Positions 3,531 through 24,618 of a stretch of DNA of 24,618 bases are shown piece by piece. The notes under the pieces are model-generated. The model had not been told where the DNA came from, made no database searches, and saw only the letters and a program-made list of their open reading frames with translations. The first letter of the stretch is position 1; every line of letters begins with the position of its first letter. Source of the stretch: a virus. The stretch spans positions 1 to 24,618 of IMG/VR virus record IMGVR_UViG_3300008952_000285. One strand, 5' to 3'. The translations under genes were made by a program, and so were the position numbers.

Positions 3531-3538
3531 TATTTATA
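3531..3538 (-). promoter_or_regulatory. T4-type late promoter box TATAAATA
   Basis: The minus strand reads TATAAATA, identical to the T4 late promoter -10 consensus, ending 19 bases before the ATG of the 210-aa gene. It includes the TAA stop of the giant gene, so coding and promoter functions would share bases. The motif is seen directly. Its use depends on the phage having T4-like gp55/gp33/gp45 late transcription factors, none of which lies in this window. In AT-rich DNA an 8-base match can occur by chance; position in front of a structural gene is the main support. Confidence 0.5.
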
Positions 3539-12500: not shown

Positions 12501-15431
12501 TTGATTTATTGTTCCACCAAATCTTTTTGTTTTATCTAAATTTCTATAATTATTTGAACCAAAAGAACTACCTGTTCTTCCAGGTTGTTTTTCTATTACA
12601 TCTACAAAATGATTAAACAATTCTGAGTACTGAATATATTTTACTTCACTGTTATTTGAATTGTTTTTTATTGAATTAGCAACATCATATGACCATTCGT
12701 CTGTTGAGCTAGTATCTGTAGTAAAAAATTTAATATCAATTATATCGCCTATTGCTAATATATCTTCGTTAGTCGATATTGCTTGGGCATAAGATGAATT
12801 ACCTGTTTTATAAGGTATTACAACATTCTGCCCATTAAACGTATACTGAACATTCCTTAATAATTTAGTACCATTATGGAATACTTCAGGCCACCCTTGT
12901 TCCAAAACTTGATCTATAATTATAATTTTACCTGTTGAACTATTAGGAGCAGTATAATATAAAATACTATTTGTTTCTGCGGCATCAACCGCAAATGTTG
13001 TTTTTGTACCTGATGTACTAATACTAGAGGTAAAGGCCGATCCTGTTTTATCTTGAAATGCCAATGAAGTTATACCATTTGTTACATCAAATGTATATGT
13101 TTTCCCTCGTGCCAAATATAATGTAGGATTAATACCTGTTAATTTTTCATAACCGTATGCAGAATCTAAATGAAAATTCCATCCGGTTGTATTTGCCTTG
13201 AGCCAAAAATCTCTTTCAGGTTCATAATTTGTTGTGCCCAAATCTACACTTAGGTCTGCCGTTGCAGATGTAACTTCTTGGGTTACAGTAATCGGAGTTC
13301 TTACTTGTTTATAACTCTGATGCCAGCAATTGTCGTAATAATGTTTTCCGTCATTGGCATCATATTTTTGTAAATAATACAAACCTTTTATATCTACACC
13401 TGTAGTAAATGTATTGTATTGATATGTTGTTTGAACAACAGAATTATTAAAAATTAAATTACTTGTATTTGTTGTATTTGAATACGACAAAGGAAATTTT
13501 AAATAATCATCATTTTTGCGAGTAGGCGAAGTTGTATCTTCTAGATATTCAAATACTGTTGATCCTGTAAAATCTGTTTCTTTATAATGAGATAATGGTT
13601 CATGTTTAGCATTGTATAATTCATATAACGGATGTTTATTTGGTATTTCTTTTTCTTGAGTTGCAGACCATGTATCTAATTTTGCATTGTAATAATAATC
13701 TATTCCTCTAACTAATGAAGAAGAAGCAGTTTGCCATTTTGTTGCATCTTCTCCTGGTGTTACACCTTTATTAATATTAACTAATGAACTAAAATACAAG
13801 TCTTTATATTTTACAATATCGCCAATAGAATAAGATTTATTCCAATCATATAATGTAGGACCATTCATGATAGTAACTATATCACCATGATTTGGTACTG
13901 CGGTCGACCGACCATTATCGTTTGTAATTGCGGTTAATGTATAACTATTACTGTCGACTGTACAAATTTGATTGTTTATATTTGTTGTTGCATTTATTAT
14001 TAATACTCTATCATCTCCTTGAACAGTATAACCATTATGAACTAAATTAGTTGCTAAACTTGTGTTAGGATCAGGTAAGGTTGAAATTACCATAGCAACC
14101 GGTTTTCTACTTTCAATGCCATGATTGTATAGACGTAAATCTTTCTCCCAACAAATAATAGGTCGTTGTGCATAATCACTATCGTCTAATATTTGACCTA
14201 ATGTTGTAGAACTAGATGGAGATGCTACGCTATCTCCTATTTTAAAAGTTGGTGCAACACCTATAAAAGTATTAACTGCCTTTACTGTATCAATATGGTA
14301 CCAATTATTTGTTCTAGACCAAATATTATTATCTCTTGAACCTCTTTCTATAGTTAGATATTCGTGTCTCCAATGAAGATCTGTGTTTTGTCCGTTTTTA
14401 AAAGGTACTACTTTTTGTCCGCCTACTACTAATAAATGAACACCTGCACTAGCACCGTAATTTGCACCAGTTGTTGCAGTTATGGTAGTGCTTACTTGTC
14501 CGTCGGTTTCGATACTACCCGAAGCAATAGCATGAGTTGGATTTCCGCCAGATGAATCATATATATTAAAAAATGGTTTATAAACGTATCCTTCACCTTG
14601 TGTAGTTATAGAAATTGTATCAATTTCATCATTTATATCTACAGTAACAGTACCAGCAGCATTTATCTGGCTTGCAATACCATGTGAATAAGGCGTTATA
14701 GATGTTAAATTTGATTCCCAAGCGGTAGTTGTTGCATTAAAGGTACTTTCTACAATTAATTTTATTTTAGACCCTACGCCAGTAACCAAGTAAACATTAT
14801 TATCATTGGAAAATGTAAGTCGCATACCATTTTCCAGTTTAATAGTTCTGTTACTATATTCTGATTGAGCCGATGATGTAAATTGTGCTAACCCTTCTAC
14901 ATCAGCAGCAGTTGTTCCATGAAGACCAAATATAGGTAATCCAAACGGCAACCATACGTAATTATTCCAATTAATAAACATATCAAAATCAATTGGAGGT
15001 CTCCAAGAATAATTAATATCAGCAAATAATTTATCTAAATTAGTAGTGTTTGAATCTAAAAAATTTAACTTATTAATTATATCACTATAGGTATACGCAG
15101 ATTCATATTCGCCTGTGTCTGTTCGCTGACTTACTATACCCGGTTCTAATTGATAACGATTATCTAATGTATTTTTACTAGGTAAATAAGAATCATCTAC
15201 TGATGATCTAATTTTTCCTGTCTTCTTTCCAATATATCCTGATTTATTTTCAGATACACCGCTTTCGATCATAGGATCTAAAGTTGCATTTAAAAATTTT
15301 TTATTTGTATCGCTTTGGAAATATTCAGGTAATAAGTCTGTTGAATATTTTTTTGATAAATTCCTATTAGTCGAACCCGGCGAAGTATTATTAACTTGCT
15401 CTGTTTTTGCTTTACTAGTAAAATCAACCAT
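3534..15431 (-). CDS. Giant baseplate-associated structural protein (gp7 position), 3965 aa
   Basis: A single uninterrupted frame of 3965 codons starts at an ATG with AGGAA five bases upstream, 11 bases after gp6. T4 has gp7 (about 1030 aa, the wedge protein that binds gp6, gp53 and gp8) in this position, so this is a positional and far larger counterpart; residue-level homology to gp7 is not claimed. The N-terminus (LLPEYFQSDTNKKFLN, then SGYIGKKTGK, YQLEPGIV and FDMFINWNNYVWLP by about 170) resembles large structural proteins of marine T4-like phages. Visible modules are a chitin-binding-like segment (about 524-567), two cupredoxin-like segments (about 743-840 and 1480-1600, the latter with CGNHSGMGG), more chitin-binding-like segments (about 2194-2364 and 3112-3160), a CATC...CKC cysteine group (about 2560-2585), nine GTS triplets (3060-3086), a YHSKI motif (about 3785) and an Ig-like segment near 3844-3920. 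It is probably a virion protein extending from the baseplate. Confidence 0.75.
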   Translation of the reverse strand: MVDFTSKAKTEQVNNTSPGSTNRNLSKKYSTDLLPEYFQSDTNKKFLNATLDPMIESGVSENKSGYIGKKTGKIRSSVDDSYLPSKNTLDNRYQLEPGIVSQRTDTGEYESAYTYSDIINKLNFLDSNTTNLDKLFADINYSWRPPIDFDMFINWNNYVWLPFGLPIFGLHGTTAADVEGLAQFTSSAQSEYSNRTIKLENGMRLTFSNDNNVYLVTGVGSKIKLIVESTFNATTTAWESNLTSITPYSHGIASQINAAGTVTVDINDEIDTISITTQGEGYVYKPFFNIYDSSGGNPTHAIASGSIETDGQVSTTITATTGANYGASAGVHLLVVGGQKVVPFKNGQNTDLHWRHEYLTIERGSRDNNIWSRTNNWYHIDTVKAVNTFIGVAPTFKIGDSVASPSSSTTLGQILDDSDYAQRPIICWEKDLRLYNHGIESRKPVAMVISTLPDPNTSLATNLVHNGYTVQGDDRVLIINATTNINNQICTVDSNSYTLTAITNDNGRSTAVPNHGDIVTIMNGPTLYDWNKSYSIGDIVKYKDLYFSSLVNINKGVTPGEDATKWQTASSSLVRGIDYYYNAKLDTWSATQEKEIPNKHPLYELYNAKHEPLSHYKETDFTGSTVFEYLEDTTSPTRKNDDYLKFPLSYSNTTNTSNLIFNNSVVQTTYQYNTFTTGVDIKGLYYLQKYDANDGKHYYDNCWHQSYKQVRTPITVTQEVTSATADLSVDLGTTNYEPERDFWLKANTTGWNFHLDSAYGYEKLTGINPTLYLARGKTYTFDVTNGITSLAFQDKTGSAFTSSISTSGTKTTFAVDAAETNSILYYTAPNSSTGKIIIIDQVLEQGWPEVFHNGTKLLRNVQYTFNGQNVVIPYKTGNSSYAQAISTNEDILAIGDIIDIKFFTTDTSSTDEWSYDVANSIKNNSNNSEVKYIQYSELFNHFVDVIEKQPGRTGSSFGSNNYRNLDKTKRFGGTINQQLSSLLKTGFTLSNEDYDVLLALEYVSDSYNVFKKKFVQKIEQLNKSMTSSPTISGLIDQALYDINLGKNNTFSFANSDMMYYFNLVEKTYNVSASTSNFNLPRNITRTNQYKNHVYVYTIDTNGVETYLTSDLYTLDTTSTTNKITLNSAVSSGKVVIKVSIDQGLSFIPPTLAKLGVVPCIKPTFYLDDTGSRQVVIIEGHDGSKTVSFNTTVDSNLTPSLTDVRDKALFELENRIYDHIQSLFKNKRKDLTYIPGKYRSTPYTKTEQNNFYDNYFNSYRVGKGITTLTNSSYDANNKFTHNYSSTQPEGIGYWRGIYRHYFDTDRPHTHPWEMLGFVEKPSWWDAGYGSPTTTTTNDNCWANLTRKADLESALQKGIISEPGQAEVQDINVARPGATFPVTGTGTAGGTDATVTLQDPDTWSLASPTANEARSNFKFGDGSPIETVWLRSSIFPYVENKFLYSANPGKYLEDNYDVLDKINDGPDASTTLKVTVASDGSQNRFYIDGVQQKTLKLEQGKTYIFDQSDSTNASSLTYTDNHPLYFTTIRDTEGSIYSQGTQQVWKIGSTDYTTFAGSGNYEQSFLSSNTGDRYTQLIIPKGTAISQLYYSCGNHSGMGGIIEIVDSKHELQKISEKTKKRHNTNELYIHNEVDTTNLTRRVLGIQQLIVDRLMFLGNEIYKDFARQIRQLNSKQMYKIQGYSNKNNISLLADSLQSELSDNFIPADNISLKLHKSSPYKKIVYSGVEIIKSSTGYTINGWHNDEPYFNVLPSIKVSGRAVTIGNTNLIRYVKYETIPVKVNYGTTFNNIQDVYWFLLEYEKYLESVGFVFNDVDSNNNIQNWNFAANQFVIWAESNWDVNTSVQLSPIGKSLTLILAHGYLKNNEDEYGSTYLDKDKKLLNLSEISVDRQYKEVNIKCKNDNKAIYCAILVVCDYEHLLILDNTTIFNDIVYSPLLSEEKLRLKIDYQKTSNWNGTFYAPGYIVRDDTIFENFDKSVSNVNYELFSETQHLTDLNLSGVARKNIGYEKKQFLRNMRLSDDVQFQFMKGLLHKKGTPESFNRLIRSTFLLESSVDIDLEEEWMFRLGEFGPLPTQQTQEFTLKQSDIKTNPQLIRFDPIFSGQARDIDYDAAISMLKGDSRWLEEPANDPPITFTQGSLDRDLSNFEEIETDEKNLPNAGYLKLDEVTYTMFNKKDLPKLYDTYKDVKDQGALSSIYNLTQTDGWRDNRSYAVGSFVRHKGQRWTNSAITSAKQSFRGINNALKTTYYSSTVFTAYDNSITYGINAYVSHTDSGTTTNYRSIASSFSNVTPGTESGATKWVAVGVAGSSYNDFPTWNANFAYDGQDNSSTNPDYVIYEGAEYKAITTANNLNQNPSTQTGFWTKTGDLYVAGLHIDKCVFSYDNTTKLTAATDPFATSNLGVEVRIGDFNTTYYPMQYRDSANTKVDGLGEYTYAFTFGPTSVPYSKLPADNDFIYISAFQYRASSNDPNPWTAVSENGLFTAWFANDENTQSWDVVGLHDKNLDVELVCPGYDTGNEALVKLNQSHSLSIGDYVLIVGAENNPGLNGIHKVTGFPSGSDCATCGSRSDKQFYIDQYIAVNELYCKCFVFRSHRFLGTDDLYNAITDSKYAWNEGWVAYADSYYRVQSLILKYQSDTTTTGGQYLSSEIEQTAYTLSYSVSSADDISVYIGTSKTILPASTGGNVAWSVSGTTITFTPANISQWIIGQPLEIVFKNTSGLGFGVYSYNLSNTDWDVVRQQQTKTASDQISNVLIYDYIDNKELGKAEVWDPFKGIIPGVAEAEIDSSTRYDQALYSDSTEETKEVVDERYWDKEKVGETWWDLSTVRYLDYEQKLDLDYSFKNWGAKFPESSIDIYEWTKSIVTPDEWSTLVNGEFVIDGEVASGEAYYKIIDDQIYYYWSQDTEYNPYTGTEVTYYYFWVKNKRTVPKTKPYRRFSTLEITQYIDDPTESGIFWASPAGTSSLISGNLEKILNKNSIVQINFTNSVGQTHKEWLTLRENDSSVVPRLLANRMHESILGFDQTKTTLGLVGQETSVNNSINTISYDWSGDLEYPANSVVSYGTSGTSGTSGTSGTSGTSGTSGTSGTSGGNLQNNAIAIELESAKLMLSLPTIADYASGTTYAKDDVVNDATNKIQYISLADNNTGHVLTSTSHWSRHYPEIRISPIANNLTFGAVVTIDPPVGNTLGLPLADVTAYAFPNIVNGTIDSITIVRGGSGYTSKPNVYISYPETSTGTRATVIDADVTLSNGSITAITMNTARKGSGYLQSHAKIENEVVELNYYDRYATERFLSDTNYLQNSDFNANATTYWSTQLGALVVTSTSGEVLNGAYSGKFTILSGTQVGYVGQKIDISLPAYAGITAGVKHLIKIKFRSSSTWSGAGSASLSYGHASSSQTNFSGFTVETSDTIAITSVAANELYGLQLEVVAQSDQYQAVFLKIDLQSSPSSDVIIFVDDIEFTNVSTGDRLLVTRGVNHPVTTNASTIVAHDQFASFNEIGNFSRQPWTQLLAGTYEYLNDNTISYEAPNRVPDLRLNELFRYGSQIRPYKQSLIKDRLKAIRIVVQKVNELLIKINLSDSQLNWRKRLGGTFNKGNSTYTPQDYWVYADWFDPNYTINSSTVTQQTVNTRNELYDVNTSLYTTVRVDDDDGAGDWAFYQWVSNQWLKIGKQNGTIQIKETLYNITDEDGGWDAVEWDITGWDKNYNNEFLNILDALRLDVFVGPYQSYYKEFFFAMIRYIYSEQENIDWIAKSSVLQLTRSTPLNLTPKTFDVGSEDDILEFLNDTKPYHSKIETIADARTITEESKTTATEVLDIRVQTNTTGNTADADSRAFRIFITDAGTRKYEGIIDANKTTLNGAITATATSIEVANGGAANLTGTSGTIVIGSERITFTGVSTDTLTGCTRGVDGTTPKAHLNGASVVEAGTAMNLTLATDPLSYPAFNPSANTTIAGTSPIQGLTVTQGTI
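6174..6254 (-). repeat. (GTS)9 coding microsatellite, 18-bp unit
   Basis: Three perfect tandem copies of the 18-base unit gttccacttgtcccagat (plus-strand reading, 6187-6240) are flanked by degenerate copies. In the giant protein they encode nine Gly-Thr-Ser triplets followed by Gly-Gly. The 18-base period encodes two triplets with alternating codons, so slipped-strand changes would add or remove six residues in frame. It is probably a flexible linker between modules. Confidence 0.9.
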
Positions 15432-15442
15432 TTAATTTCCTA

Positions 15443-18400
15443 TCAGTAGTATCCTGAACCACCATCGGATGAACCACTACTAGATGTAGATGTTGTTACA
15501 CCCGTGATCGATGTAGTACCTGTTACAGTATCTAATGTACCACCTGCAATTCTAATATTAGATTCAGTATAAGATGAAACTATATCTATATCAGATACTT
15601 TTGCTGCACTTATAAAAATCTCATGTTCGTTTGGTGTTACCTGAAACATATTACCAAATCTAGAACCACCATCTTTAGGTACTATAACAATAGATGAAAT
15701 AATACCTATCATCTTTCGATGAACATAACCTGCTAATTCTGTAAAATAAAATGTTTCCCCAAATGCCCAGTTAGCAGGATCAAAATATTCATCTATATAA
15801 CCTACAATTAATGATTTTATTTCGTTATCTGTATATGATGTAGTAGAATTTTTAACTACTTTAAATTTTGCCTGCAATGCATAATCTGCTTCCGCTCCAA
15901 ATAATATTTTCATTTCACATGGTTTATAAATGATTGTATCCGATGAAGTTTTTGAACTTTCAATTGATGTAAACATATTTTTTAAATCTTCAGTTGTATG
16001 AGGTAAAGGTTTAAAATCTATACGCCTATCATTTTTTAACCAATTTGAAAAAGCAGTATAATATGTATTTGTTAAAACATATGTATCAATTATATTTGTA
16101 ACTGCCGGATCTATTCTTGCCTCTTCACTTGCAGCATGAGTCCATTTAAAATTAAGATTTGATCTTCCTGTATAACTTTTATATGTTAATTTCCTAATAT
16201 GCTCCCAATATGTAACATTAGTTGGTAAACTTCCTAAGTTATTGTTCGTTAATGATTTATATTCAGATCCTTCGTATTCTACTTTATCATTTAACGAATA
16301 TACTTGTGACGAAGACCAACTTATAACTGTATTGGGAGTAGCAGGTGTCCAATATGTAGTATTAGTCGGAACATTACCTGTTGTTGATGCTAATGCTTTA
16401 TAATAGTTTCCGTTATATATTACAACATCATTAATGCTATATGTAGCTACTCCATTATATTCTAATGCCAAAGGAGGAGGTTCTGCCATTAATGTTTTAT
16501 ACGTATAATTACCATCTTGAACATCTGTTATAAAAATAGTATTTGATCCTACAATAGAATCAAATGCAAAAGGATCATCAATTACTAAATCTTTATTATC
16601 GTCGGCAAATTTAAGTAACACTCTTCTAGGATCTGTATATCCGTCGTCGTATGTGTAATATCCTGATATATCAAACTTATAATCATTAGTAAACAATGTA
16701 GAACCCGTTCCGCCACCAACGGTTGTTAATGGTACGGAATTTAATTTTAGAATGCTAATAGCATCTATAACAGATTTTTTTGATAATTTACTTACTTTAT
16801 TTTCTAATCGTTGATTATAAAATCTTACATTATTAACTGAACCAAAATTAAATTTAACTGCCCTTGCTAAAAATACCCATTGATTTGCTTCTTTTTCTAT
16901 TCGTAACATCCAACTATGATCTCCATTGCTGCCCGTACCAGCAGAACTAAGATCAAATGCAGCATCTCTAGAAGCACCCAAATTTGCAACAGGCACTACA
17001 GTCCATGCCATTGTTGTATGATTGTAATACAAACCAAATGAATTATTTGCATCTAATTGTGTAGCTATATTTGTTCTTTCAGTTGATGTAAATTTTTTAT
17101 TAAATGCAGGTGCTATTCTTTTAATTCTATAACCAGAAGGAATATTTCTAGATAATTGTACCGCTCCTAAACCTTCTGCAGTTTTACCTGTATATGTTAG
17201 TGTAGTGTCTGTTACTCCCCTACCATCTCCTGAAACACTAACTATGCTTGCCCATTCAGTTTTTGACGAAGCAGTATAATTGTTAGTGCCATCAGTATCA
17301 GGTTGTACAAATTCAATATTAGCTCCAGGAACTAAATATTTTCCGATCAGATCAATTGTGTATGTTCCTAATCCTGCCGTTGTTGCATCGTCTTGAAAAT
17401 ATCCTGTCGACATTTTATTTGAACCAGTTACTCGTGTCCATGTCCATATGTCACTAGTTGCTGATTGCAAATAATTAATTGGATATGTAGGTCCAGAAAT
17501 ATAATCACCTGAATATTTTTGATAATAAAAATTTTCAACTTCTTTTTCGTTCAAATATGATTCTATGTATTGTTCTATTATAGATGATGAAGTTAATGTT
17601 GAATCAGAAGATAAAGTAGATCGTAATAAAGAATCTTCTAAATAAATGTACCCATCGTCTCCAAATATAGTTAAATCTTTATATGTTCCTGTTGGATCAT
17701 TAATATCAACATAACGTGTATGTCCACTATGTATTCTATTTGTACTCTTTATCTTTTTAATATTTGTAGAAGCTTGCAATGGATATACTGCATAATCTTC
17801 GGCAGTTACCATTCTATCCTGAGTAGCATATACTTGTGGTGCATTTGTTTGTATAGATGTTAATGTCTCTGTTTCTGTACTATTTTGAACTGCTTCTTGT
17901 AAATCTAAAACTACAGTTAAGTCGTATAATTGATTGTCGTTTCTACTAAAATAAGGAATAACAATGTTTATGTTTTGCATGTCTTCTGGTCTAATAATAT
18001 ACGATTCATTATTTCCTGTTCTGTACCAAGTTCTGATAACATCTTTAGGAGCATTACCAAATCTTCCATCTGCAAACTTAATAGATATTTGATCGTCATT
18101 TCTTGTAACAACTTCAAATATATTTCTTAAACTATTATCAATAGAATTAAAAATAACATTTGAACCTGTAACAACCGGTACTTTAGTCCAACTAACAGAC
18201 ACCGAACCTGATTGAGCAACACTTTGAACCCACACATCATCATTTACTATATTATCTACATTAATATCTATTACCTGATTTTCAATCGGTGATGTAATTA
18301 ATACATCTTTAAATGCCAAAGTACCCTGTTTGAAGTAAAAAAAGAAACCTGTATTGTCACTAGCATTACCTTTACCGTCATTTAAATAAATGCAGTTAAA

Positions 18401-19096
18401 AGATGCATTAGGATCGGGATAAGGTTCATAATACCCTGCTGCATTTAAATTAACATTACAAATTTCAAAGCCAGTCGATATACCATTAACATTGGCATTG
18501 AACAGATAAACAACATCTTGTCCTGTCAATGAATTTAAAGTATAAATTTCTGTTTTAATACCATCATGCGTACCTGAATTATACGGAGTACCGAATTGAT
18601 TTGTAGCTGTCAGTACAGAATTTACAATTAAAAGAAATTGTTCGTATGCATTTGCATTAGTAGCATCATTCCACACTACTTCTACGTTAGAAAGATTATT
18701 GCCGTCTGAATCTATTAATATTTCTGTGGTTTTTACTGATTTTACTTTAATTACCCCTTTTGAATTTAATGATCGTTTTGGATTATATCCTAAAAATCTA
18801 GCCAACCGTAACACTGATTCTCTAGAAGTAGCAGTTTCTATAAAATTTTCACGAGAAGAAAAGTCAATTCTAAATGCTAGGCTATGTCCTAGATATGCAA
18901 TAAGATCTATTAAACTTACAAATTCTGAAGATTGAATCCAATCATTATAATCTTCTGGATAATTTAATCTAATGTAATCGACCATTGCCGATTTAATAGT
19001 ATCAAAGTCGTATGCTTTAAAATTTGCTTGGGCAAACGATTGATATACCGCAGTATAATCTTCTGCAGCAAATAATACATCTTGTCGTGTAGCCAT
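15443..19096 (-). CDS. 6: Baseplate wedge protein gp6-like (Baseplate_J family), 1217 aa
   Basis: This corresponds to T4 gp6, which forms the inner baseplate ring and wedge backbone with gp25 and gp53. The first 110 residues have the gp6 signature (FKAYDFDTIKSAMVDYIRLN, WIQSSEFVSLIDLIAYLGHS, ENFIETATSRESVLRLARFLGY). The central part has APQVYATQDRMVTAEDY (about 415-430) and a Baseplate_J-like core. About 1052-1178 holds the conserved C-terminal domain (YFDPANWAFGETFYFTELAGY, then FQVTPNEHEIFISAAKV). T4 gp6 is 660 aa, so this one is almost double. Part of the extra length is a pair of chitin-binding-like segments at about 882-970. The tail is Ser/Thr/Gly rich and ends GSGYY. The start has AGGAA 7 bases upstream and lies 10 bases after gp25, so the two are co-transcribed. 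Family assignment is firm; the function of the inserted segments is unknown. Confidence 0.92.
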   Translation of the reverse strand: MATRQDVLFAAEDYTAVYQSFAQANFKAYDFDTIKSAMVDYIRLNYPEDYNDWIQSSEFVSLIDLIAYLGHSLAFRIDFSSRENFIETATSRESVLRLARFLGYNPKRSLNSKGVIKVKSVKTTEILIDSDGNNLSNVEVVWNDATNANAYEQFLLIVNSVLTATNQFGTPYNSGTHDGIKTEIYTLNSLTGQDVVYLFNANVNGISTGFEICNVNLNAAGYYEPYPDPNASFNCIYLNDGKGNASDNTGFFFYFKQGTLAFKDVLITSPIENQVIDINVDNIVNDDVWVQSVAQSGSVSVSWTKVPVVTGSNVIFNSIDNSLRNIFEVVTRNDDQISIKFADGRFGNAPKDVIRTWYRTGNNESYIIRPEDMQNINIVIPYFSRNDNQLYDLTVVLDLQEAVQNSTETETLTSIQTNAPQVYATQDRMVTAEDYAVYPLQASTNIKKIKSTNRIHSGHTRYVDINDPTGTYKDLTIFGDDGYIYLEDSLLRSTLSSDSTLTSSSIIEQYIESYLNEKEVENFYYQKYSGDYISGPTYPINYLQSATSDIWTWTRVTGSNKMSTGYFQDDATTAGLGTYTIDLIGKYLVPGANIEFVQPDTDGTNNYTASSKTEWASIVSVSGDGRGVTDTTLTYTGKTAEGLGAVQLSRNIPSGYRIKRIAPAFNKKFTSTERTNIATQLDANNSFGLYYNHTTMAWTVVPVANLGASRDAAFDLSSAGTGSNGDHSWMLRIEKEANQWVFLARAVKFNFGSVNNVRFYNQRLENKVSKLSKKSVIDAISILKLNSVPLTTVGGGTGSTLFTNDYKFDISGYYTYDDGYTDPRRVLLKFADDNKDLVIDDPFAFDSIVGSNTIFITDVQDGNYTYKTLMAEPPPLALEYNGVATYSINDVVIYNGNYYKALASTTGNVPTNTTYWTPATPNTVISWSSSQVYSLNDKVEYEGSEYKSLTNNNLGSLPTNVTYWEHIRKLTYKSYTGRSNLNFKWTHAASEEARIDPAVTNIIDTYVLTNTYYTAFSNWLKNDRRIDFKPLPHTTEDLKNMFTSIESSKTSSDTIIYKPCEMKILFGAEADYALQAKFKVVKNSTTSYTDNEIKSLIVGYIDEYFDPANWAFGETFYFTELAGYVHRKMIGIISSIVIVPKDGGSRFGNMFQVTPNEHEIFISAAKVSDIDIVSSYTESNIRIAGGTLDTVTGTTSITGVTTSTSSSGSSDGGSGYY

Positions 19097-19106
19097 TTAG
19101 TTATTC

Positions 19107-19478
19107 CTATTTTGCTTCAGATAAATTTCGATCAAAATTAATAGATAAAATATCTTCTTGATCAGTTGGTGTATATTTTAATCGCATCTGAATGCTAATT
19201 GCATTTTGGTTACTGTAAGTAACCACTTCTCGTAAATTCCATCTAGGATCTTGTGATACAATATCTATACAATCTTCTTTAATTGCGTCTTCTACTGTAT
19301 CGTCATATGGCTCAAATAATAAATCCCAAATCAAAGAACCATACGAAGGATCCATTAATCTTTCGCCTTTTTTAGTGTTAAAATGATTTGTTAAATCTTG
19401 TTTAGCAAGGTCCATATCTTTTAATTTTCTAACTGAAGTTTTAGAAGAATAGCCTTTAAATAAAACTTTTGTTGCCAT
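19107..19478 (-). CDS. 25: Baseplate wedge protein gp25-like (GPW/gp25 family), 123 aa
   Basis: This is a GPW/gp25-family protein, the lysozyme-related wedge subunit that joins gp6 and gp53 at the inner baseplate and helps begin sheath assembly. The family hallmark is KGERLMDPSYGSLIWDLLFEP at residues 38-58, followed by VEDAIKEDCIDIVSQDPRW. The length (123 aa) fits T4 gp25 (132 aa). It is the first gene of the leftward structural operon: GGAA lies 5 bases before the ATG and a CTAAATA late promoter box lies 18 bases upstream. The gp25-gp6 order is the same as in T4-like phages, and together the two genes are the strongest evidence that the window is from a myovirus. Confidence 0.95.
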   Translation of the reverse strand: MATKVLFKGYSSKTSVRKLKDMDLAKQDLTNHFNTKKGERLMDPSYGSLIWDLLFEPYDDTVEDAIKEDCIDIVSQDPRWNLREVVTYSNQNAISIQMRLKYTPTDQEDILSINFDRNLSEAK

Positions 19479-19496
19479 AATTATTCCAACTTATTA

Positions 19497-19503
19497 TATT
19501 TAG
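19497..19503 (-). promoter_or_regulatory. T4-like late promoter box CTAAATA ahead of gp25
   Basis: The minus strand reads CTAAATATAATAAG just before gp25. CTAAATA is the late promoter core described for T4-like cyanophages. It lies 18 bases before the gp25 ATG, so the leader would be very short but would still include the GGAA ribosome site. This is the only clear promoter candidate for the whole structural operon in the divergent region. No good sigma70 -35/-10 pair was seen on this strand. Confidence 0.6.
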
Positions 19504-19528
19504 TAAAAAATAAACCAAGTATTTAATA

Positions 19529-19565
19529 TTTTTGGTTGACATTTGATCTTAAGAGTGTATAATAC
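19529..19565 (+). promoter_or_regulatory. Sigma70-like promoter P1 (TTGACA-16-TATAAT)
   Basis: A perfect -35 hexamer TTGACA (19536-19541) and a perfect -10 TATAAT (19558-19563) are separated by 16 bases. Transcription would start near 19570, leaving a leader of about 35-40 bases before the 201-aa gene. The -35 is embedded in TTTTTGGTTGACA and the -10 in TATAATAC; both strings recur at P2 (23897-23933). A GTTAA-5-TTAAC inverted repeat (19574-19588) sits just after the expected start. A promoter this close to consensus suggests early or constitutive transcription by host RNA polymerase. Confidence 0.85.
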
Positions 19566-19596
19566 TTGTATAGGTTAAATTAGTTAACACTTGCTT

Positions 19597-19601
19597 AGGA
19601 G
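19597..19601 (+). promoter_or_regulatory. Ribosome binding site AGGAG of the 201-aa gene
   Basis: AGGAG ends five bases before the ATG at 19607. It fixes that start and is among the strongest Shine-Dalgarno sites in the window. Confidence 0.8.
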
Positions 19602-19606
19602 CAAAT

Positions 19607-20212
19607 ATGACAAAGTGGAACAGAACTAAAATTGCTAACCTACTTGCTACAAACAACAAGGCAGTTGAACGTGCCTTAATAGTTGTTTTCAACAATCAAG
19701 AGCTTGACGAGCAAGCAATGGATTCCACCCATAAAGCAAATGGTATTGGGTTTACTGCATTTGATGCAGATATCCTTTCTTCCTTTGCAAAACACATCCT
19801 TAAAGGTCGTTCACTTTCCCCAAAACAATTAGAAGTTGCACGTAAAAAAGACAAATTTGGTAATATGAAAATTGCCAAATACTGGAAACAGTTACAAGCA
19901 GAAATTATCCGTAAAGAACAAAAATTAGACATTCCTGCAGACGGCGGGTTTAGAACTTCTAAACAAGTTATTAATGGTGTGAGACAAGGTTATACTTACG
20001 ATGATGATACATATTCCGACCATTTTAAAGACGCAAATGGTTTTAGACCACGTGGTATTTTGTGGGATCAGTGGATGGCACAAAGTCCGGCTGAAAAGCA
20101 AAAAGAGTGGGATAGGTTGCAAGAAGAGATTGTAAGGCAGATAGAAGAAGATAAAAAGTATAATCATTGTTTGCAAAAAGAAGTTAATCACTATAAGCAA
20201 ATGAGCATATGA
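19607..20212 (+). CDS. Conserved phage/plasmid-type hypothetical protein, two-part, 201 aa
   Basis: First gene of the rightward operon, under promoter P1 and a strong AGGAG site. The N-terminal half (about 10-85: LLATNNKAVERALIVVFNNQ, then NGIGFTAFDADILSSFAK and LSPKQLEVARKK) resembles a small uncharacterised domain I recall from phage and plasmid proteins. The C-terminal half (about 130-201) has YSDHFKDANGFRPRGILWDQW and then a charged helix with EKQKEWDRLQEEIVRQIEEDKK. The GFRPRG...W segment also recurs in phage hypotheticals, so this may be a fusion of two small proteins. No catalytic motif, signal peptide or membrane segment is visible. Its stop overlaps the next ATG (ATGA), so the two are probably translationally coupled. 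Function is unknown; an early role is inferred only from the promoter. Confidence 0.8.
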   Translation: MTKWNRTKIANLLATNNKAVERALIVVFNNQELDEQAMDSTHKANGIGFTAFDADILSSFAKHILKGRSLSPKQLEVARKKDKFGNMKIAKYWKQLQAEIIRKEQKLDIPADGGFRTSKQVINGVRQGYTYDDDTYSDHFKDANGFRPRGILWDQWMAQSPAEKQKEWDRLQEEIVRQIEEDKKYNHCLQKEVNHYKQMSI

Positions 20213-20484
20213 CTTATCCTTATAAGAAAGAAAAAGATATGAATGATTATAACCGCGGTAAACGTGACATCATGTTAGAAATGGCAAAAGAAGATTTGAT
20301 TAACGTAGCATCAAGAATTGCTGTTTTAGAAAACGACCTCGATGGTGCCCGAAAAACAAAGTGGGAGCTAGTTAATAAGATTCGTTTGCTAGAAAACAAT
20401 GCGGCTTTTGAGTGTGTAGAAAAAGGAGAGGCTTTGACTCTCCATGAGAAGATTAACATTATTAAGGAAGGGTTTACGTTATGA
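20209..20484 (+). CDS. Small coiled-coil protein of unknown function, 91 aa
   Basis: The start ATG overlaps the previous stop as ATGA. An alternative in-frame ATG at 20239 (Met11) would remove MTYPYKKEKD; neither has a strong Shine-Dalgarno site, so coupling from the upstream gene favours 20209. The protein is charged and mostly helical, with a heptad-like stretch (about 28-63: LINVASRIAVLENDLDGARK...VNKIRLLENN) typical of a short coiled coil. It ends KINIIKEGFTL. The last codons also contain AAGGAAGG, the ribosome site of the next gene, and its stop overlaps that ATG. Part of this 3' end is duplicated at 20852. I do not recognise a family. Confidence 0.7.
   Translation: MTYPYKKEKDMNDYNRGKRDIMLEMAKEDLINVASRIAVLENDLDGARKTKWELVNKIRLLENNAAFECVEKGEALTLHEKINIIKEGFTL
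20425..20443 (+). other. Perfect 6-bp hairpin GGAGAG/CTCTCC within coding sequence
   Basis: GGAGAG and CTCTCC are separated by seven bases near the 3' end of the 91-aa gene, about 20 bases before the AAGGAAGG site of the 117-aa gene. There is no U-tract, so it is not an intrinsic terminator. It could influence translation coupling or mRNA processing, or be chance. Confidence 0.35.
20458..20482 (+). repeat. 25-bp direct repeat, copy 1 (gene junction with ribosome site)
   Basis: This copy spans the last eight codons of the 91-aa gene, the AAGGAAGG ribosome site (20464-20471) and the first two bases of the ATG of the 117-aa gene. It matches copy 2 at 22 of 25 positions. Confidence 0.85.
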
Positions 20485-20834
20485 GTACGAGTGTATATGG
20501 TGAAAGAATTGAAGCTTTAGTAGAAGGTCTTGACGCTATGTTAGACCACATGAACGATAGTTATCGTGAGTGGATGAAAAGTGATGACCCTATCAAGAAG
20601 CAAATGTGTAGTGAGTATCATGCTTCCCTTACCTATTACATGGGTAAGAAATATGTCAAGGTAGTCACAAGCAGTTCAGTTTGTGCTTTCGTTGTCGCCT
20701 GTGATGATGATAAGAAGTTCATGTTTGGTGACATCCTGAAGCCTGCTGGGCGGAAGGCTCCTGCAAGGAACTTCCGTAGAGGGAATGTTCTGGATCGAAC
20801 CTTTGCTCGAGTTCGATGGACAGGAGCTTTATAA
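20481..20834 (+). CDS. Conserved phage hypothetical protein, 117 aa
   Basis: AAGGAAGG lies nine bases before the ATG, which overlaps the previous stop (ATGA). The N-terminal third is helical and charged. The C-terminal part has YYMGKKYVKVVTSSSVCAF, then a GDILKPAGRKAPARNFRRGN segment and a terminal VRWTGAL. I recall this GDIL...W/G..AP..NF.RGN pattern in small proteins of T4-like and other large phages, with no established function. A compact beta-rich fold is likely for residues 55-117. By eye its base composition is clearly richer in G and C than the structural genes to the left. No membrane or secretion signal is seen. Confidence in the gene is good; the function is unknown. Confidence 0.78.
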   Translation: MSTSVYGERIEALVEGLDAMLDHMNDSYREWMKSDDPIKKQMCSEYHASLTYYMGKKYVKVVTSSSVCAFVVACDDDKKFMFGDILKPAGRKAPARNFRRGNVLDRTFARVRWTGAL

Positions 20835-20851
20835 AAAAACTTGACAAATTT

Positions 20852-20876
20852 ATTATTAAGGAAGGATTTACTGTAT
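20852..20876 (+). repeat. 25-bp direct repeat, copy 2 (decayed gene junction)
   Basis: This copy lies in the 75-base gap after the 117-aa gene. It keeps AAGGAAGG and the codons for IIKEGFT plus a stop, but the position matching the ATG of copy 1 reads ATA. A short frame, ATG 20816 to TAG 20878, encodes 20 residues ending KFIIKEGFTV. See findings for the interpretation as a remnant. Confidence 0.8.
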
Positions 20877-20877
20877 A

Positions 20878-20885
20878 GATAAATA
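20878..20885 (+). promoter_or_regulatory. Possible T4-type late promoter box GATAAATA
   Basis: GATAAATA differs from the T4 late consensus TATAAATA at one base and lies 24 bases before the ATG of the 155-aa gene. It would give that possible head protein its own late expression inside an otherwise early-type operon. A nearby TTGACA (20841) has no matching -10 at normal spacing, so a sigma70 promoter here is unlikely. Confidence 0.4.
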
Positions 20886-20909
20886 ATTTAAACAGTTTAG
20901 GACAGTTAT

Positions 20910-21377
20910 ATGAAAATCAATGATATTATCAACGAAGCATCTTTTAAATTTTCTCCCGAAGACTTCAAAGATACAGAAAAATATAGCATACCATTTGAGG
21001 ATACAACAAGATTTGCCCAATTCTTAGCAAGGCAAATGGAAATTATGGGTGTATCAAAAGAGATGGCAGAAAAGTTATATAAGGCTGCGGAAGCAGGCAA
21101 CGATAGTTGGATTCATAGATTTGGAAAAAGTCCTAAACTTAAAAATCTTATTGGTCATACTATAGATACTGCAATGACGTCCAATTTAGTTGCAATTCAA
21201 AAAGCAATGGGATTATATGCAGGCATTCTTAATCTTAAAAAGAAAGGTCCTAGTAAACCATCGCCCACACCAGACGATATGCTACCCGGCGGACCAGACG
21301 ACGAAGAAGCAAGAGATCGTCGAAGTGCAGCCGCTTTTGGACCTCCAACTGATCCACGTGGTATTAGATCATACTAA
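20910..21377 (+). CDS. Possible internal head protein with capsid-targeting leader, 155 aa
   Basis: The N-terminus MKINDIINEAS has the form of T4 capsid-targeting sequences (compare MKTYQEFIAEA of T4 internal protein III). These bring proteins into the prohead and are removed by the gp21 protease after Glu in an (I/L)-x-E|A/G/S site. Here I-N-E|A at residues 7-10 fits that site. The body (12-115) is mostly helical, with SKEMAEKLYKAAEAGNDSW and a KKKGPSKP basic stretch. The tail (117-155) is acidic then Arg/Pro-rich. The length is in the T4 internal-protein range. AGGA lies about 9 bases before the ATG, with a possible late promoter box upstream. An internal head or ejected protein is an inference. 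MKI..II.EA openings are common among marine phage hypotheticals, so it could be another head-associated or unrelated protein. Confidence 0.72.
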   Translation: MKINDIINEASFKFSPEDFKDTEKYSIPFEDTTRFAQFLARQMEIMGVSKEMAEKLYKAAEAGNDSWIHRFGKSPKLKNLIGHTIDTAMTSNLVAIQKAMGLYAGILNLKKKGPSKPSPTPDDMLPGGPDDEEARDRRSAAAFGPPTDPRGIRSY

Positions 21378-21380
21378 AAT

Positions 21381-21599
21381 ATGAAAGAACTATTAGATCA
21401 ACTACGAGTTGTTTTTGAAAAATCCGAAGCTCGCATCCATGAACTCGTAGGTAAGTGTAACGAGCTAGAAGAAGAAAACGACAGACTTCGTCAAGAACTT
21501 CAAAACGAAGGATACATTATTAAAATAAACAGAAACTATGATAGGTCTAGAAAGTATGACAGAAGCAAATCACAACGAGAATTCGACTGCGATTTTTGA
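21381..21599 (+). CDS. Small coiled-coil hypothetical protein, 72 aa
   Basis: It begins three bases after the previous stop. Residues 1-45 are a strong predicted coiled coil by eye (LLDQLRVVFEKSEARIHELV, then CNELEEENDRLRQELQNE). The C-terminal 25 residues are basic and tyrosine/arginine rich (NYDRSRKYDRSKS). That C-terminal part overlaps the next gene by 44 bases in another frame. There is no clear Shine-Dalgarno sequence, so coupling to the upstream gene is likely. The function is unknown; a small scaffold or oligomerisation protein is possible. Confidence 0.6.
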   Translation: MKELLDQLRVVFEKSEARIHELVGKCNELEEENDRLRQELQNEGYIIKINRNYDRSRKYDRSKSQREFDCDF

Positions 21600-21948
21600 T
21601 TGGGCAAATAAATTTCATAAAGCATTTAGAGAATTAAAACACCAAGGATTAGATATACAGACAGTCCGTGTCTTTAGAAACTTAATATGTAGAGACGGTT
21701 TTTCGTTTTCCCTCCAAGCAGGTCCTGCACATTATTCTGAACCAAAAGCAATAGCAGAAAAATATGATGCCTGGGAAGTTGGGTATCCGTCACAAGTAGA
21801 ACCATTGTGGTTAGAATGGCAAGAACCCGGCCATGATCCAACAGAAAGTGTATACGGCTGGGTGCCAAATAATGTTGTTAATGCAGTAATACAAAAACAT
21901 GGTGGCATTGATGAACGAGAATTTATTTTGGAGAAGCTTCTAAAATAA
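21556..21948 (+). CDS. Conserved phage hypothetical protein, 130 aa
   Basis: I chose ATG 21556 rather than 21538 because AGG and AGAAAG lie just before it, while 21538 has no ribosome site. Conserved-looking segments are VRVFRNLICRDGFSFSLQAG, AHYSEPK, WEVGYPS, and near the end SVYGWVPNNVVNAVIQKHGG. This set matches a family of phage hypotheticals I recall, with the general form 'GF..S.QA....Y..P....Y...E.G.P.....VYGYVP...V..V..KHGG'. No function is established as far as I know. The fold is likely soluble alpha/beta; no membrane segment is seen. It overlaps the coiled-coil gene by 44 bases and ends 10 bases before the next small gene. Confidence 0.75.
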   Translation: MTEANHNENSTAIFDWANKFHKAFRELKHQGLDIQTVRVFRNLICRDGFSFSLQAGPAHYSEPKAIAEKYDAWEVGYPSQVEPLWLEWQEPGHDPTESVYGWVPNNVVNAVIQKHGGIDEREFILEKLLK

Positions 21949-21958
21949 ATACGGTATC

Positions 21959-22117
21959 ATGACTGACGCACAGGTAGAAGATCATTTAGATGAACGACAA
22001 GAGCTAGAGCAGGAAAGAGATTATTACAAAGATAGGTGTACAGAGTTAACACGGCAATTAGATATTGCTAATAAAGAATTAAAAAGAATAGAAGATACTT
22101 ATTTCAGAAACAACTAA
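21959..22117 (+). CDS. Very small coiled-coil protein, 52 aa
   Basis: The 52-codon frame runs MTDAQVEDHLDERQ...TYFRNN and almost all of it has heptad character (ELEQERDYYKDRCTEL, then RQLDIANKELKRIED). It fills the space between the 130-aa gene and prs, begins 10 bases after the former's stop, and its TAA overlaps the prs ATG (TAATG). This placement and its codon pattern support a real gene. It is similar in style to the 72-aa coiled-coil protein upstream and may have arisen by the same route, but the sequences are not obviously alike. AATAAATA at 21944-21951, only seven bases from its ATG, resembles a late promoter box, though it is probably too close to serve this gene. Function is unknown. 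Confidence 0.6.
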   Translation: MTDAQVEDHLDERQELEQERDYYKDRCTELTRQLDIANKELKRIEDTYFRNN

Positions 22118-23043
22118 TGAAACTGATAACAGGTAATGCAAACAGAAAACTAGCCGAAGACATAGCCGGCTTAGCAGGTATAAGTTTATGCGAAACTTTA
22201 GTAACCCGGTTCGCAGACAATGAAATTTGGTGTGAAATAAAAGAGAACATCCGAGGGGAAGATGTTTTCATTATCCAAAGCACATGTAATCCAGCCAACG
22301 ACAACTTAATGGAATTATTAGTACTCATAGACGCTTGCAAACGAGCAAGTGCAGGCAGAGTTACGGCAGTTATTCCTTATTATGGTTATGCACGACAAGA
22401 CAGGAAACCTACTTCTAGAACTCCTGTAAGTGCAAAACTTGTTGCTAATATGTTAGAAGCGGCAGGCGTAGATCGTGTATTAACAATGGATTTACATGCA
22501 GGTCAAATACAAGCCTTTTTTGATATTCCAGTAGATGATTTAAGAGCAAAACCGTTGTTTGTAAAAGACTTAAAAAATAGTCCTATGGTTAAAAGCGGTA
22601 ATGCAATAATAGTTTCACCGGATGCAGGAGGCGTTCCCCGGGCAAGGTCTATTGCAAAAGCATTAGATTTAGATATAGCAATTATTGATAAACGTCGAGA
22701 TAGGGCCAACGAGTCCGAAGCAATGAATGTCATTGGTAACGTAAAGGGGAAGCAATGTATAATCGTGGACGATATCGTAGATACTGGGGGAACACTAGCC
22801 AAGGGTGCAGACGCTTTAAAGAGCGAAGGCGCCGAGGTAATTCATGCATATATAACACACGGAGTATTAAGCAAAAATGGTGCAAAGAAAATGGAATCGT
22901 CAGCGTTATCGGCATTAGCGATAACAGATAGTATTCCAAATGAAGAAAATAGTGTAGTTAAAATTATCTCAATTGCGGGTATGTTTGCCGAAGCAATTCG
23001 CAGAGTACACCATGATGAATCAATTAGTGTATTGTTTGAATGA
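22117..23043 (+). CDS. prs: Ribose-phosphate pyrophosphokinase (PRPP synthetase)
   Basis: Transfers pyrophosphate from ATP to ribose 5-phosphate to make PRPP, the shared precursor of purines, pyrimidines, NAD, histidine and tryptophan. All class I landmarks are present: RFADNEI (31-37), ANDNLMELL (60-68), the PYYGYARQDRK ATP-binding region (87-97), metal-binding His127 in MDLHAGQIQ, SPDAGG (167-172), the catalytic KRR loop (192-194), the PRPP loop DDIVDTGGT (218-226), and a C-terminal ESISVLFE like the E. coli ESISAMFE end. At 308 aa it is full length, with no missing catalytic residue. Sequence style is closest to alphaproteobacterial enzymes as I remember them. It sits inside a chain of overlapping phage genes (TAATG with the 52-aa gene upstream, ATGA with the 201-aa gene downstream), so it is probably a phage-carried metabolic gene. 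An ADP-ribose pyrophosphate synthetase (NARP1-type Adps, also PRPP-synthetase-like) is the main alternative. Confidence 0.95.
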   Translation: MKLITGNANRKLAEDIAGLAGISLCETLVTRFADNEIWCEIKENIRGEDVFIIQSTCNPANDNLMELLVLIDACKRASAGRVTAVIPYYGYARQDRKPTSRTPVSAKLVANMLEAAGVDRVLTMDLHAGQIQAFFDIPVDDLRAKPLFVKDLKNSPMVKSGNAIIVSPDAGGVPRARSIAKALDLDIAIIDKRRDRANESEAMNVIGNVKGKQCIIVDDIVDTGGTLAKGADALKSEGAEVIHAYITHGVLSKNGAKKMESSALSALAITDSIPNEENSVVKIISIAGMFAEAIRRVHHDESISVLFE

Positions 23044-23645
23044 ACGAAGAAGAAGCATGGCATAATTGTCATCCAGATGATGCATGGATTTTTGATAAAC
23101 TAATCCTCTCCAAAAAATTAGGTTACACATGTGGTCCAGCAGAAGTAGCCGTTCCTGAATCAAATTATTATGTAGTTAGACCTTGTGTTAATCTTGCTGG
23201 CATGAGTATAGGTGCGGAAATACAATATTTAGAAATGGATTCATGTATTGATCAGCCTGGTTATTTTTGGTGCGAAATGTTTAAAGGTAGACATTTAAGT
23301 GCCGACTATGAAATAGATTCTGCATCTAGATCAATCCAACAAGGTTTAACAGTAGAAGGATTTAGAGACTATAATCAACCCCTATGGAAGTTTCTTCGTT
23401 GGATTCGTGTCAACGACGAACTAAAGATAAATTTTATTCTTAAACAATTAAAAGGATCTTATAAGGCTATTAACTGCGAGTTTATAGGCGGTAAACTTAT
23501 AGAAATGCATTTAAGAGCAAACTCAGATATGGGCGATTACAATGAAGTAATACCTGTATGGAAGGGCGAATCTACAACACCGCCAGACGGCTTTGAATAT
23601 ATAGAAGATGAAGATTTCAATCGTATCGGCTTTTTTAAGCGTTAA
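23040..23645 (+). CDS. Conserved phage hypothetical protein, possibly ATP-grasp-like, 201 aa
   Basis: The ATG overlaps the prs stop (ATGA) with no ribosome site of its own, so it is probably translated by re-initiation and made together with Prs. Marked segments are DDAWIFDKLILSKKLGYTCGP (13-33), YYVVRPCVNLAGMSIGAEIQ (43-62), PGYFWCEMFKGRHLSADYE (about 73-91) and INCEFIGGKLIEMHLRANSDM (about 144-164). This arrangement resembles a conserved protein I recall from T4-like phages. The order 'VRPC.N' ... 'E.F.GRHLS.DYE' ... 'GGKLIEMHLRAN' is reminiscent of the closing half of ATP-grasp ligases, but no glycine-rich ATP loop is clear. I treat that as a weak lead only. Alternatives are a structural or nucleotide-binding protein without catalysis. 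Confidence 0.78.
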   Translation: MNEEEAWHNCHPDDAWIFDKLILSKKLGYTCGPAEVAVPESNYYVVRPCVNLAGMSIGAEIQYLEMDSCIDQPGYFWCEMFKGRHLSADYEIDSASRSIQQGLTVEGFRDYNQPLWKFLRWIRVNDELKINFILKQLKGSYKAINCEFIGGKLIEMHLRANSDMGDYNEVIPVWKGESTTPPDGFEYIEDEDFNRIGFFKR

Positions 23646-23907
23646 AAATCATTTTAAAGAAAGTTACATATTAAGTCCATTTGCATTTTATTGTGAAGTC
23701 TTAGAAGCGACTTTATTAATTAGTGCAAGTGCTATATTAACTTTTACAGTACTAGATCCTGCTACAAAAATATTCATTCCTTTGTATTTTGTAGGTAGTA
23801 TAATGGGCGTAATTAGCACTACAATTCGCAAGGCGGCATTTGCTACTGTTCTTTGTACATGGTTTACAATTATGAATTTTATTGCTCTTATTAAACTTTT
23901 TGGTTGA
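23608..23907 (+). CDS. Small membrane protein with three predicted helices, 99 aa
   Basis: Hydrophobic segments at about 27-48 (FYCEVLEATLLISASAILTF), 54-70 (IFIPLYFVGSIMGVIST) and 76-97 (AAFATVLCTWFTIMNFIALI) suggest three inner-membrane helices separated by short turns. ATG 23608 overlaps the preceding gene by 38 bases; no later ATG precedes the first helix, so this start is the most likely, although a non-ATG start nearer 23650 cannot be excluded. There is no lipobox or cleavable signal. Inner-membrane location is probable. The role is unknown: holin-like, superinfection exclusion or membrane-anchoring functions are all open. Promoter P2 begins within its final codons. Confidence 0.7.
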   Translation: MKISIVSAFLSVKNHFKESYILSPFAFYCEVLEATLLISASAILTFTVLDPATKIFIPLYFVGSIMGVISTTIRKAAFATVLCTWFTIMNFIALIKLFG

Positions 23908-23933
23908 CAAATACTTACAAGATAGTATAATAC
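23897..23933 (+). promoter_or_regulatory. Sigma70-like promoter P2 (TTGACA-16-TATAAT)
   Basis: TTGACA (23904-23909) and TATAAT (23926-23931) are separated by 16 bases. The first bases of the -35 element lie in the last codons and stop of the membrane-protein gene. The strings TTTTTGGTTGACA and TATAATAC are identical to P1, at the same spacing. A TTAACATTAAC stretch follows near the expected start. The leader to the 85-aa gene is about 25 bases and contains GAGG (23954-23957), six bases before the ATG. Confidence 0.85.
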
Positions 23934-23963
23934 ATATATTGTTTAACATTAACGAGGTCCAAT

Positions 23964-24221
23964 ATGAGTGTTAACGAATGGGATTTTGTACATGAAGATG
24001 TTACACCTACCGATATCACTTTATTTCAACTTGAACCTAATGCTAAGTTTAATGACGAACATTGTCTTGCACATATCATGTGTTGGGCAGGTGCATTTCC
24101 TAGTGTATCACAGGCTAGGAAAAATGGATGGGATAGGCCTATCCCTTTTGGCTTTTCTGAATTTACAGTAGGAAAGTCCAAAAGACAAATATTCATCCTC
24201 AATCGAACAGGAGACAAATGA
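23964..24221 (+). CDS. Conserved small phage hypothetical protein, 85 aa
   Basis: First gene after promoter P2, with GAGG six bases before its ATG. The C-terminal half (HIMCWAGAFPSVSQARKNGWDRPIP, then GFSEFTVGKSKRQIFILN) matches a short family of phage hypotheticals I recall. The pattern 'PS.SQARKNGW...IP.G..E..VGK.K..I.ILN' looks like a small RNA- or nucleic-acid-binding fold of the S4 type, but this is only an impression. The N-terminus is acidic. Its stop overlaps the next ATG (ATGA), coupling it to the lipoprotein gene. A perfect 16-base palindrome lies within the codons for WDRPIP. Function is unknown. Confidence 0.75.
   Translation: MSVNEWDFVHEDVTPTDITLFQLEPNAKFNDEHCLAHIMCWAGAFPSVSQARKNGWDRPIPFGFSEFTVGKSKRQIFILNRTGDK
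24131..24146. other. Perfect 16-bp palindrome GGGATAGGCCTATCCC
   Basis: The sequence is an exact inverted repeat with no central gap, followed directly by TTTT. As RNA it could form a six-pair stem with a GGCC loop and a short U-tract, like a very weak intrinsic terminator. It lies inside the 85-aa gene (codons for GWDRPIP), so codon constraint may explain part of it. See findings. Confidence 0.5.
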
Positions 24222-24618
24222 GGAATATTTTTATCGTGTTAGTAGCACTGATCGCACTTGGATGTTCGAGTGCAAGTAAACAGGAAATGGTTAAAGAGGC
24301 ACTTAATAGTGTCGGTGACCGACCTGACTGGGTTATGATTCCGCCTGTACCAGAAGGCGATCAACTTTACTTTGTAGGTACAAGCAATTTGTATGCTACA
24401 GAACAAGGGGCTCGCAGAGATGCGAAGCGAGACTCTATCCGGGAAATGTCGGAGTTTGTTCGTGTTCTTAATAAGAACAAATGGGAAAGAGTAGGCGTGA
24501 CATATGGTATGTCTGCTATGGCTAAAATGCCTACTGTTAGCGAACGTAACTTTGAGAAAGTTGTAAGTGCATCAACCGCAAACTTTTTGCGAGTGCAAGA
24601 AATGTATTTCGAACGTGA
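24218..24618 (+). CDS. Putative LPP20-like lipoprotein (5' part, runs off right edge)
   Basis: The frame opens at an ATG overlapping the previous stop (ATGA) and is open for 133 codons to the window edge. Residues 1-15 (MRNIFIVLVALIALG) form a lipoprotein signal peptide and Cys16 is the probable lipidated residue: ALGC fits a relaxed lipobox. Ser at +2 would favour outer-membrane sorting. The mature part has RPDWV (about 36-40), LYFVGTSN and a TEQGARRDAKRDSI helix, the 'P.W...Y.VG.S...E..AR..A...' layout of LPP20-type bacterial envelope lipoproteins. A phage lipoprotein could act in superinfection exclusion, lysis or envelope change; none of these is shown by the sequence. By eye it is richer in G and C than the structural genes, so recent acquisition from a bacterium is possible. 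Confidence 0.75.
   Translation, partial: MRNIFIVLVALIALGCSSASKQEMVKEALNSVGDRPDWVMIPPVPEGDQLYFVGTSNLYATEQGARRDAKRDSIREMSEFVRVLNKNKWERVGVTYGMSAMAKMPTVSERNFEKVVSASTANFLRVQEMYFER

Follow-up and report, generated by a model that had tools for sequence, protein, structure and literature searches.

The window analysed here is a linear, 24,618-base fragment that makes up a whole IMG/VR contig, in which a gene for ribose-phosphate pyrophosphokinase (prs) lies in a plus-strand operon that diverges from phage virion genes on the minus strand. The features are as follows.

3534-15431, minus strand: 3965-aa virion protein, phrog_10938, with a GTSGTSGTS repeat run
15443-19096, minus strand: gp6-like baseplate wedge, the lineage anchor for the prs presence test
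19107-19478, minus strand: gp25 baseplate wedge, pointing away from the prs operon
19536-19563, plus strand: exact sigma-70 consensus promoter TTGACA-16-TATAAT (12/12 match), head of the prs operon
19607-20212, plus strand: 201-aa ORF, phrog_21015, first gene of the prs operon
20209-20484, plus strand: 91-aa ORF, prs operon
20481-20834, plus strand: 117-aa ORF, DUF7717-like (slightly below cut-off), prs operon
20910-21377, plus strand: 155-aa conserved hypothetical, prs operon
21381-21599, plus strand: 72-aa ORF, coiled-coil-like, prs operon
21538-21948, plus strand: 136-aa conserved hypothetical upstream of prs
21959-22117, plus strand: 52-aa ORF, coiled-coil-like, directly upstream of prs and conserved there in the lineage
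22117-23043, plus strand: prs, class I ribose-phosphate pyrophosphokinase, 308 aa, by profile, structure and alignment matches
22765-22794, plus strand: PRPP/ribose-5-phosphate binding loop VDDIVDTGGT in prs, read from the sequence and intact relative to E. coli
23040-23645, plus strand: 201-aa ORF (orf23040), phrog_3577 (unknown function), tentatively ATP-grasp-like
23608-23907, plus strand: 99-aa conserved hydrophobic ORF following orf23040
23904-23931, plus strand: second exact sigma-70 consensus promoter, just past the prs operon

The original prediction had prs locked into a chain of stop/start overlaps. This held for its immediate neighbours, as prs overlaps the 52-aa ORF by 1 nt (TAATG at 22117) and orf23040 by 4 nt (ATGA, 23040-23043), but further upstream the chain is broken by gaps of 3 to 75 nt. 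Exact matches to TTGACA-16-TATAAT are expected 0.08 times per window, and the one at 19536 was found at the same place in 15 of the 16 contigs of the lineage that extend that far. Both exact promoters are conserved in same-lineage contigs and have the flanks TTGGTTGACA...TATAATAC in common. On the minus strand, the presence of gp25, the gp6-like wedge protein and the 3965-aa virion protein indicates a contractile-tailed T4-like phage setting, and gp6 is nearest to the gp6 of large phages, e.g. Atu_ph07, SCTP-2 and PA5oct. The motif CTAAATA upstream of gp25 (19497-19503, minus strand) was considered as a late-promoter motif and rejected, its frequency in the window being that of chance.

The frame of prs is intact from the ATG at 22117 to the TGA ending at 23043, and the claim that it encodes a complete class I PRPP synthetase was confirmed. 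The 308-aa product scored 459 bits with NCBIfam NF002320 (ribose-phosphate diphosphokinase, cut-off 297) and 385 bits with TIGR01251 (cut-off 113), its N-terminal, PRT and synthetase-associated Pfam domains were all well above cut-off, and solved class I enzymes in the PDB aligned with it from end to end. Length and domains are thus shared with the bacterial class I enzymes (E. coli Prs, PDB 4S2U/6ASV/7XMU). Identity to E. coli Prs is 54%, and the best bacterial matches, all full-length, are 55-60% identical. Individual sites were mapped in E. coli Prs numbering with residue roles taken from PMC6332680 and PMC9232217, according to which the DTGGT loop holds the phosphate of ribose 5-phosphate. 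The landmarks described as intact are so at every position tested: the ATP site, the catalytic loop KxR and the ribose-5-phosphate loop DDxxDTGGT are all present, the catalytic residues F35, D37, E39, R96, Q97, D98, R99, H131, D170, K194, R196, D220 and D221 are kept along with DTGGT, and the ADP/Pi allosteric site 1 is complete (R49, S81, R105, Q136, D144, S308, S310 and F313). S103 is a T in the window Prs. Among 43 clade members (the window and 42 other full-length members of the core clade), the catalytic and allosteric site 1 positions depart from this pattern in two proteins alone, where one glycine of the loop is replaced by N. Across 109 bacterial Prs these residues are nearly or wholly invariant, and 99 of the 108 positions invariant in bacteria are unchanged in the window, the nine substitutions being mostly conservative. 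The window Prs differs from E. coli Prs in allosteric site 2 residues and in a flexible loop that is one residue shorter, as in most sampled bacteria; from the bacterial class I enzymes at large it differs in being phage-encoded and in forming a clade of its own, at best about 60% identical to any that was found. Since the catalytic residues and allosteric site 1 are intact, the window Prs should, as far as its sequence tells, be an ordinary, ADP-regulated class I PRPP synthetase.

Two contigs from separate metagenomes carry the same locus. One (L002) corresponds to window positions 19063-23602, 4.5 kb around prs, at 99.98% identity, and the other (L003) to 17513-24618 at 92-95% identity. Both span the prs junctions, and the window is thus not chimeric at this point, which had been named as what would refute a phage gene. 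About 17 contigs show the same arrangement of genes around prs. To avoid bias, presence was assessed with gp6 instead of prs as the anchor, which yielded 26 contigs, several of them already found from prs; all 17 that reach the site carry the gene, since 13 extend 3.5 kb or more upstream and hold prs and 4 break off within it. Purifying selection on prs is strong, with dN/dS at 0.019 for the window against L003 and at 0.08-0.14 for the window against more distant same-lineage copies. The full-length bacterial matches might suggest a host gene that strayed in or was captured recently, or even an assembly artefact. However, independent contigs share the same junctions, prs is fixed in the lineage and selectively constrained, and its relatives form a phage-only clade on a long stem, which makes any such origin exceedingly improbable and upholds the view that this is no stray host fragment. 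Being metabolic, selectively maintained and part of a true phage genome, prs belongs to the auxiliary metabolic genes (AMGs).

The clade is carried by 44 IMG/VR contigs and the window, a count that leaves out relatives at 51-57% identity, which form other groups. Its 30 distinct full-length proteins constitute one branch (SH-aLRT 100; 100/100 in a smaller set) with a long stem. Phylogenetic comparison with bacterial Prs, as originally proposed, gave a mixed outcome, in that the phage proteins fall on the class I side of the tree but outside the sampled housekeeping groups. Annotated phage records contained no match to the window Prs above 60% identity. Among these uncultured marine phages, the clade is spread over at least two distant T4-like lineages: the gp23 of G004, a window-type phage, is at 33% to HTVC008M, while HTVC008M-like phages with a clade prs have gp23 at 61-63%. 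The clade must therefore either have moved from phage to phage or go back to an old common ancestor. Another phage group, separate from this clade (L043-L049 and L055, contigs up to 322 kb), has Prs 55-57% identical to the window, nearest to Pelagibacteraceae Prs in the tree and apparently acquired independently. The Prs of L054, a contig of the viral collection, groups with a Pelagibacteraceae genome, and this contig may be cellular DNA. Relatives at 51-52% identity in annotated records (Acinetobacter MD-2021a, Listeria and Enterococcus contigs) were considered as phage Prs and set aside; the Acinetobacter gene has a host-like context (tRNA-Gln, rplY, pth) and the Listeria and Enterococcus contigs are without annotation.

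Phage-borne prs is already known as an AMG. A survey of ocean-virus AMGs names PRPP biosynthesis as one of the pathways targeted, with prsA assigned to a single virus population (PMC11360552). Gene class and environment are the same as for the window prs, but, compared by the survey's description, one population stands against 44 contigs and the window, and the present clade is fixed in one lineage and linked in others to pyrF, PRT or purC. New here are a coherent and sizeable phage clade, fixation in one lineage, retained regulation, and operon partners that include the prs-pyrF link.

PRPP is a precursor common to purine, pyrimidine and NAD synthesis, and a phage Prs is therefore easily taken for an NAD+ counter-defence. 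The original prediction had raised this alternative in the form of Adps, the NARP1 enzyme that pyrophosphorylates ADP-ribose, its product then being converted to NAD+ by Namat to defeat NAD-depleting defences. Adps is of the same superfamily as Prs, and the Adps of phage ICP1 was itself first annotated as a PRPP synthetase (PMC11559045). This Vibrio phage protein (NrsA) is a distant homologue that shares the fold and some catalytic residues with the window Prs, yet the two are only 22% identical. ICP1 Adps has T at E39 and A at Q97, both of which the window keeps, its substrate loop reads DGAAS instead of DTGGT, and it is devoid of the C-terminal regulatory residues found in the window Prs. 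The tree has a 100/100 branch that parts the window and the bacterial class I enzymes from a side holding Adps together with six Nampt-linked phage Prs; within that side, branches are long and the order is not trusted. ICP1 Adps moreover has a Namat partner, whereas no NAPRTase-family (Namat/Nampt) gene was found, even at E <= 1, in the search of the window and 37 related records, all fragments of up to 177 kb; with the same Pfam NAPRTase model, the controls ICP1 Namat and GAP52 Nampt scored 123 and 124 bits. We thus regard an Adps function for the window protein as next to incredible.

An ordinary PRPP synthetase could still serve NAD+ salvage by feeding a phage or host Nampt and refilling NAD+ during infection. 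All six of the other phage Prs inspected, of the type found in Cronobacter phage GAP52, Escherichia phage mistaenkt and Vibrio phage D69, lie a few genes from a Nampt/NAPRT gene, and some window-lineage contigs have a nucleotidyltransferase weakly similar to NMN adenylyltransferases. The Nampt-linked proteins are phage-borne and annotated as ribose-phosphate pyrophosphokinase, as in the window, but they form a different branch at 25-29% identity, and in most of them the C-terminal regulatory residues of class I are missing. Nampt/NAPRT was found in none of the 38 fragmentary records, and none adjoins prs in the window or the related contigs. The nucleotidyltransferase reaches 24 bits against NMNAT cut-offs of 127 or more, and an NMN adenylyltransferase reading of the protein in G004 and G021 is accordingly unsupported. 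A role in NAD+ salvage is quite unlikely. A HIGH-type nucleotidyltransferase is encoded in a window-lineage contig at L181:16540-17175 (minus strand).

The sister contigs point to nucleotide synthesis instead. The gene for orotidine-5'-phosphate decarboxylase, pyrF, is located beside or near prs in 8 of the 38 records (three of them at L017:5674-6318, L025:1230-1880 and L027:11744-12394), and in L017 and L025 it starts before prs has ended; no PHROG family matched the phage pyrF. A purine-type phosphoribosyltransferase above the Pfam cut-off is present in 11 records, purC adjoins prs in L018, L022 and L024, IMPDH/GMP-reductase occurs in other sister contigs, and ThyX in six of the longer records. 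This proximity of prs to pyrF, purine-type phosphoribosyltransferases or purC favours PRPP supply for nucleotide synthesis. On the other hand, the immediate neighbours of the window prs have no known function, and none of the nucleotide genes named above, PRT, pyrF and ThyX among them, was found in window-lineage contigs of up to 86 kb. For the window itself the nucleotide reading relies on the context of the family, the ordinary enzymology and the NAD partners not being found in the fragments.

Taken together, prs most probably encodes a host-type, ADP-regulated class I PRPP synthetase that is expressed from a host sigma-70 promoter, probably early, and feeds nucleotide synthesis by dosage. 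The canonical motifs had been said to favour ordinary PRPP synthesis by a phage gene raising nucleotide precursor supply; the identity of the enzyme holds, and this function is the best supported by the sequences. The phage Prs would convert ribose 5-phosphate and ATP to PRPP and AMP. Because a conserved exact promoter heads the operon, we infer that prs is transcribed by way of host sigma-70, probably early in infection, and the added enzyme may allow PRPP for pyrimidine and purine nucleotides to keep pace with phage DNA replication. Enzyme activity, early timing, a dosage benefit and the use of PRPP for nucleotides by the window phage are likewise inferred. With allosteric site 1 intact, ADP would throttle the enzyme as in the host, and the benefit to the phage would thus be one of dosage or timing, not of escape from feedback.

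More tentatively, and with a good deal of doubt, a phage-evolved PRPP module may be shared by several marine T4-like lineages, in which an early-operon prs would act with pyrF and a divergent PRT-like protein (PRPP and orotate to OMP to UMP), an ATP-grasp-like partner taking their place in the window lineage. If so, the phage would run the final steps of pyrimidine synthesis itself, with ADP feedback left intact. The PRT-like protein is a 146-aa pyrF neighbour (cluster C6) with the PRPP-type motif CDDVLTTGGS, whose start overlaps pyrF in L027 and L034. Its identity as an orotate phosphoribosyltransferase could not be upheld, as its PF00156 match was under cut-off, a profile search against the PDB gave no PRT and the structure model was poor (pLDDT 46), and it is left as 'PRT-like'.

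The partner in the window lineage, orf23040, could also imply that PRPP is made for a dedicated product and not for general nucleotide pools. The 4-nt overlap with prs occurs in both the window and L003, homologues are found at the end of prs or close to it in 15 loci, and the top Foldseek matches are nearly all ATP-grasp enzymes, several of which bind purine-pathway intermediates. The C-terminal half is accordingly predicted, with low confidence, to be ATP-grasp-like, but the model is poor (mean pLDDT 59), with TM below 0.4 and a best E of 3e-3. Relatives of orf23040 occur in 50 Synechococcus phage records while the 60 best prs matches include none from a Synechococcus phage, and in most sister contigs prs has no adjoining orf23040. 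A dedicated product is for these reasons improbable, and general nucleotide supply is preferred.

Phage Prs are consequently of at least two kinds separable by sequence, one host-type, regulated and nucleotide-linked in marine T4-like phages, the other divergent, being Adps or Nampt-linked. Annotation of a phage Prs should consider the ribose-5-phosphate loop, the C-terminal regulatory residues and the neighbouring genes. The prs-pyrF operon is open to direct testing.

Other genes accompany prs in these contigs. Nitrogen uptake and assimilation genes are found alongside nucleotide genes, in the form of ammonium transporters (one of a 'marine subtype') and a glutamine-synthetase-like gene (L030:8536-9795, L184:5088-6245 and L038:4634-5782). 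Parts of ABC transporters are located near prs (L021:4780-5850, L027:5349-7007 and L040:7279-8097), comprising PnrA/BMP-like and NMT1/THI5-like binding proteins, an ATPase and a permease, and these transporters might import nucleosides or pyrimidine precursors.
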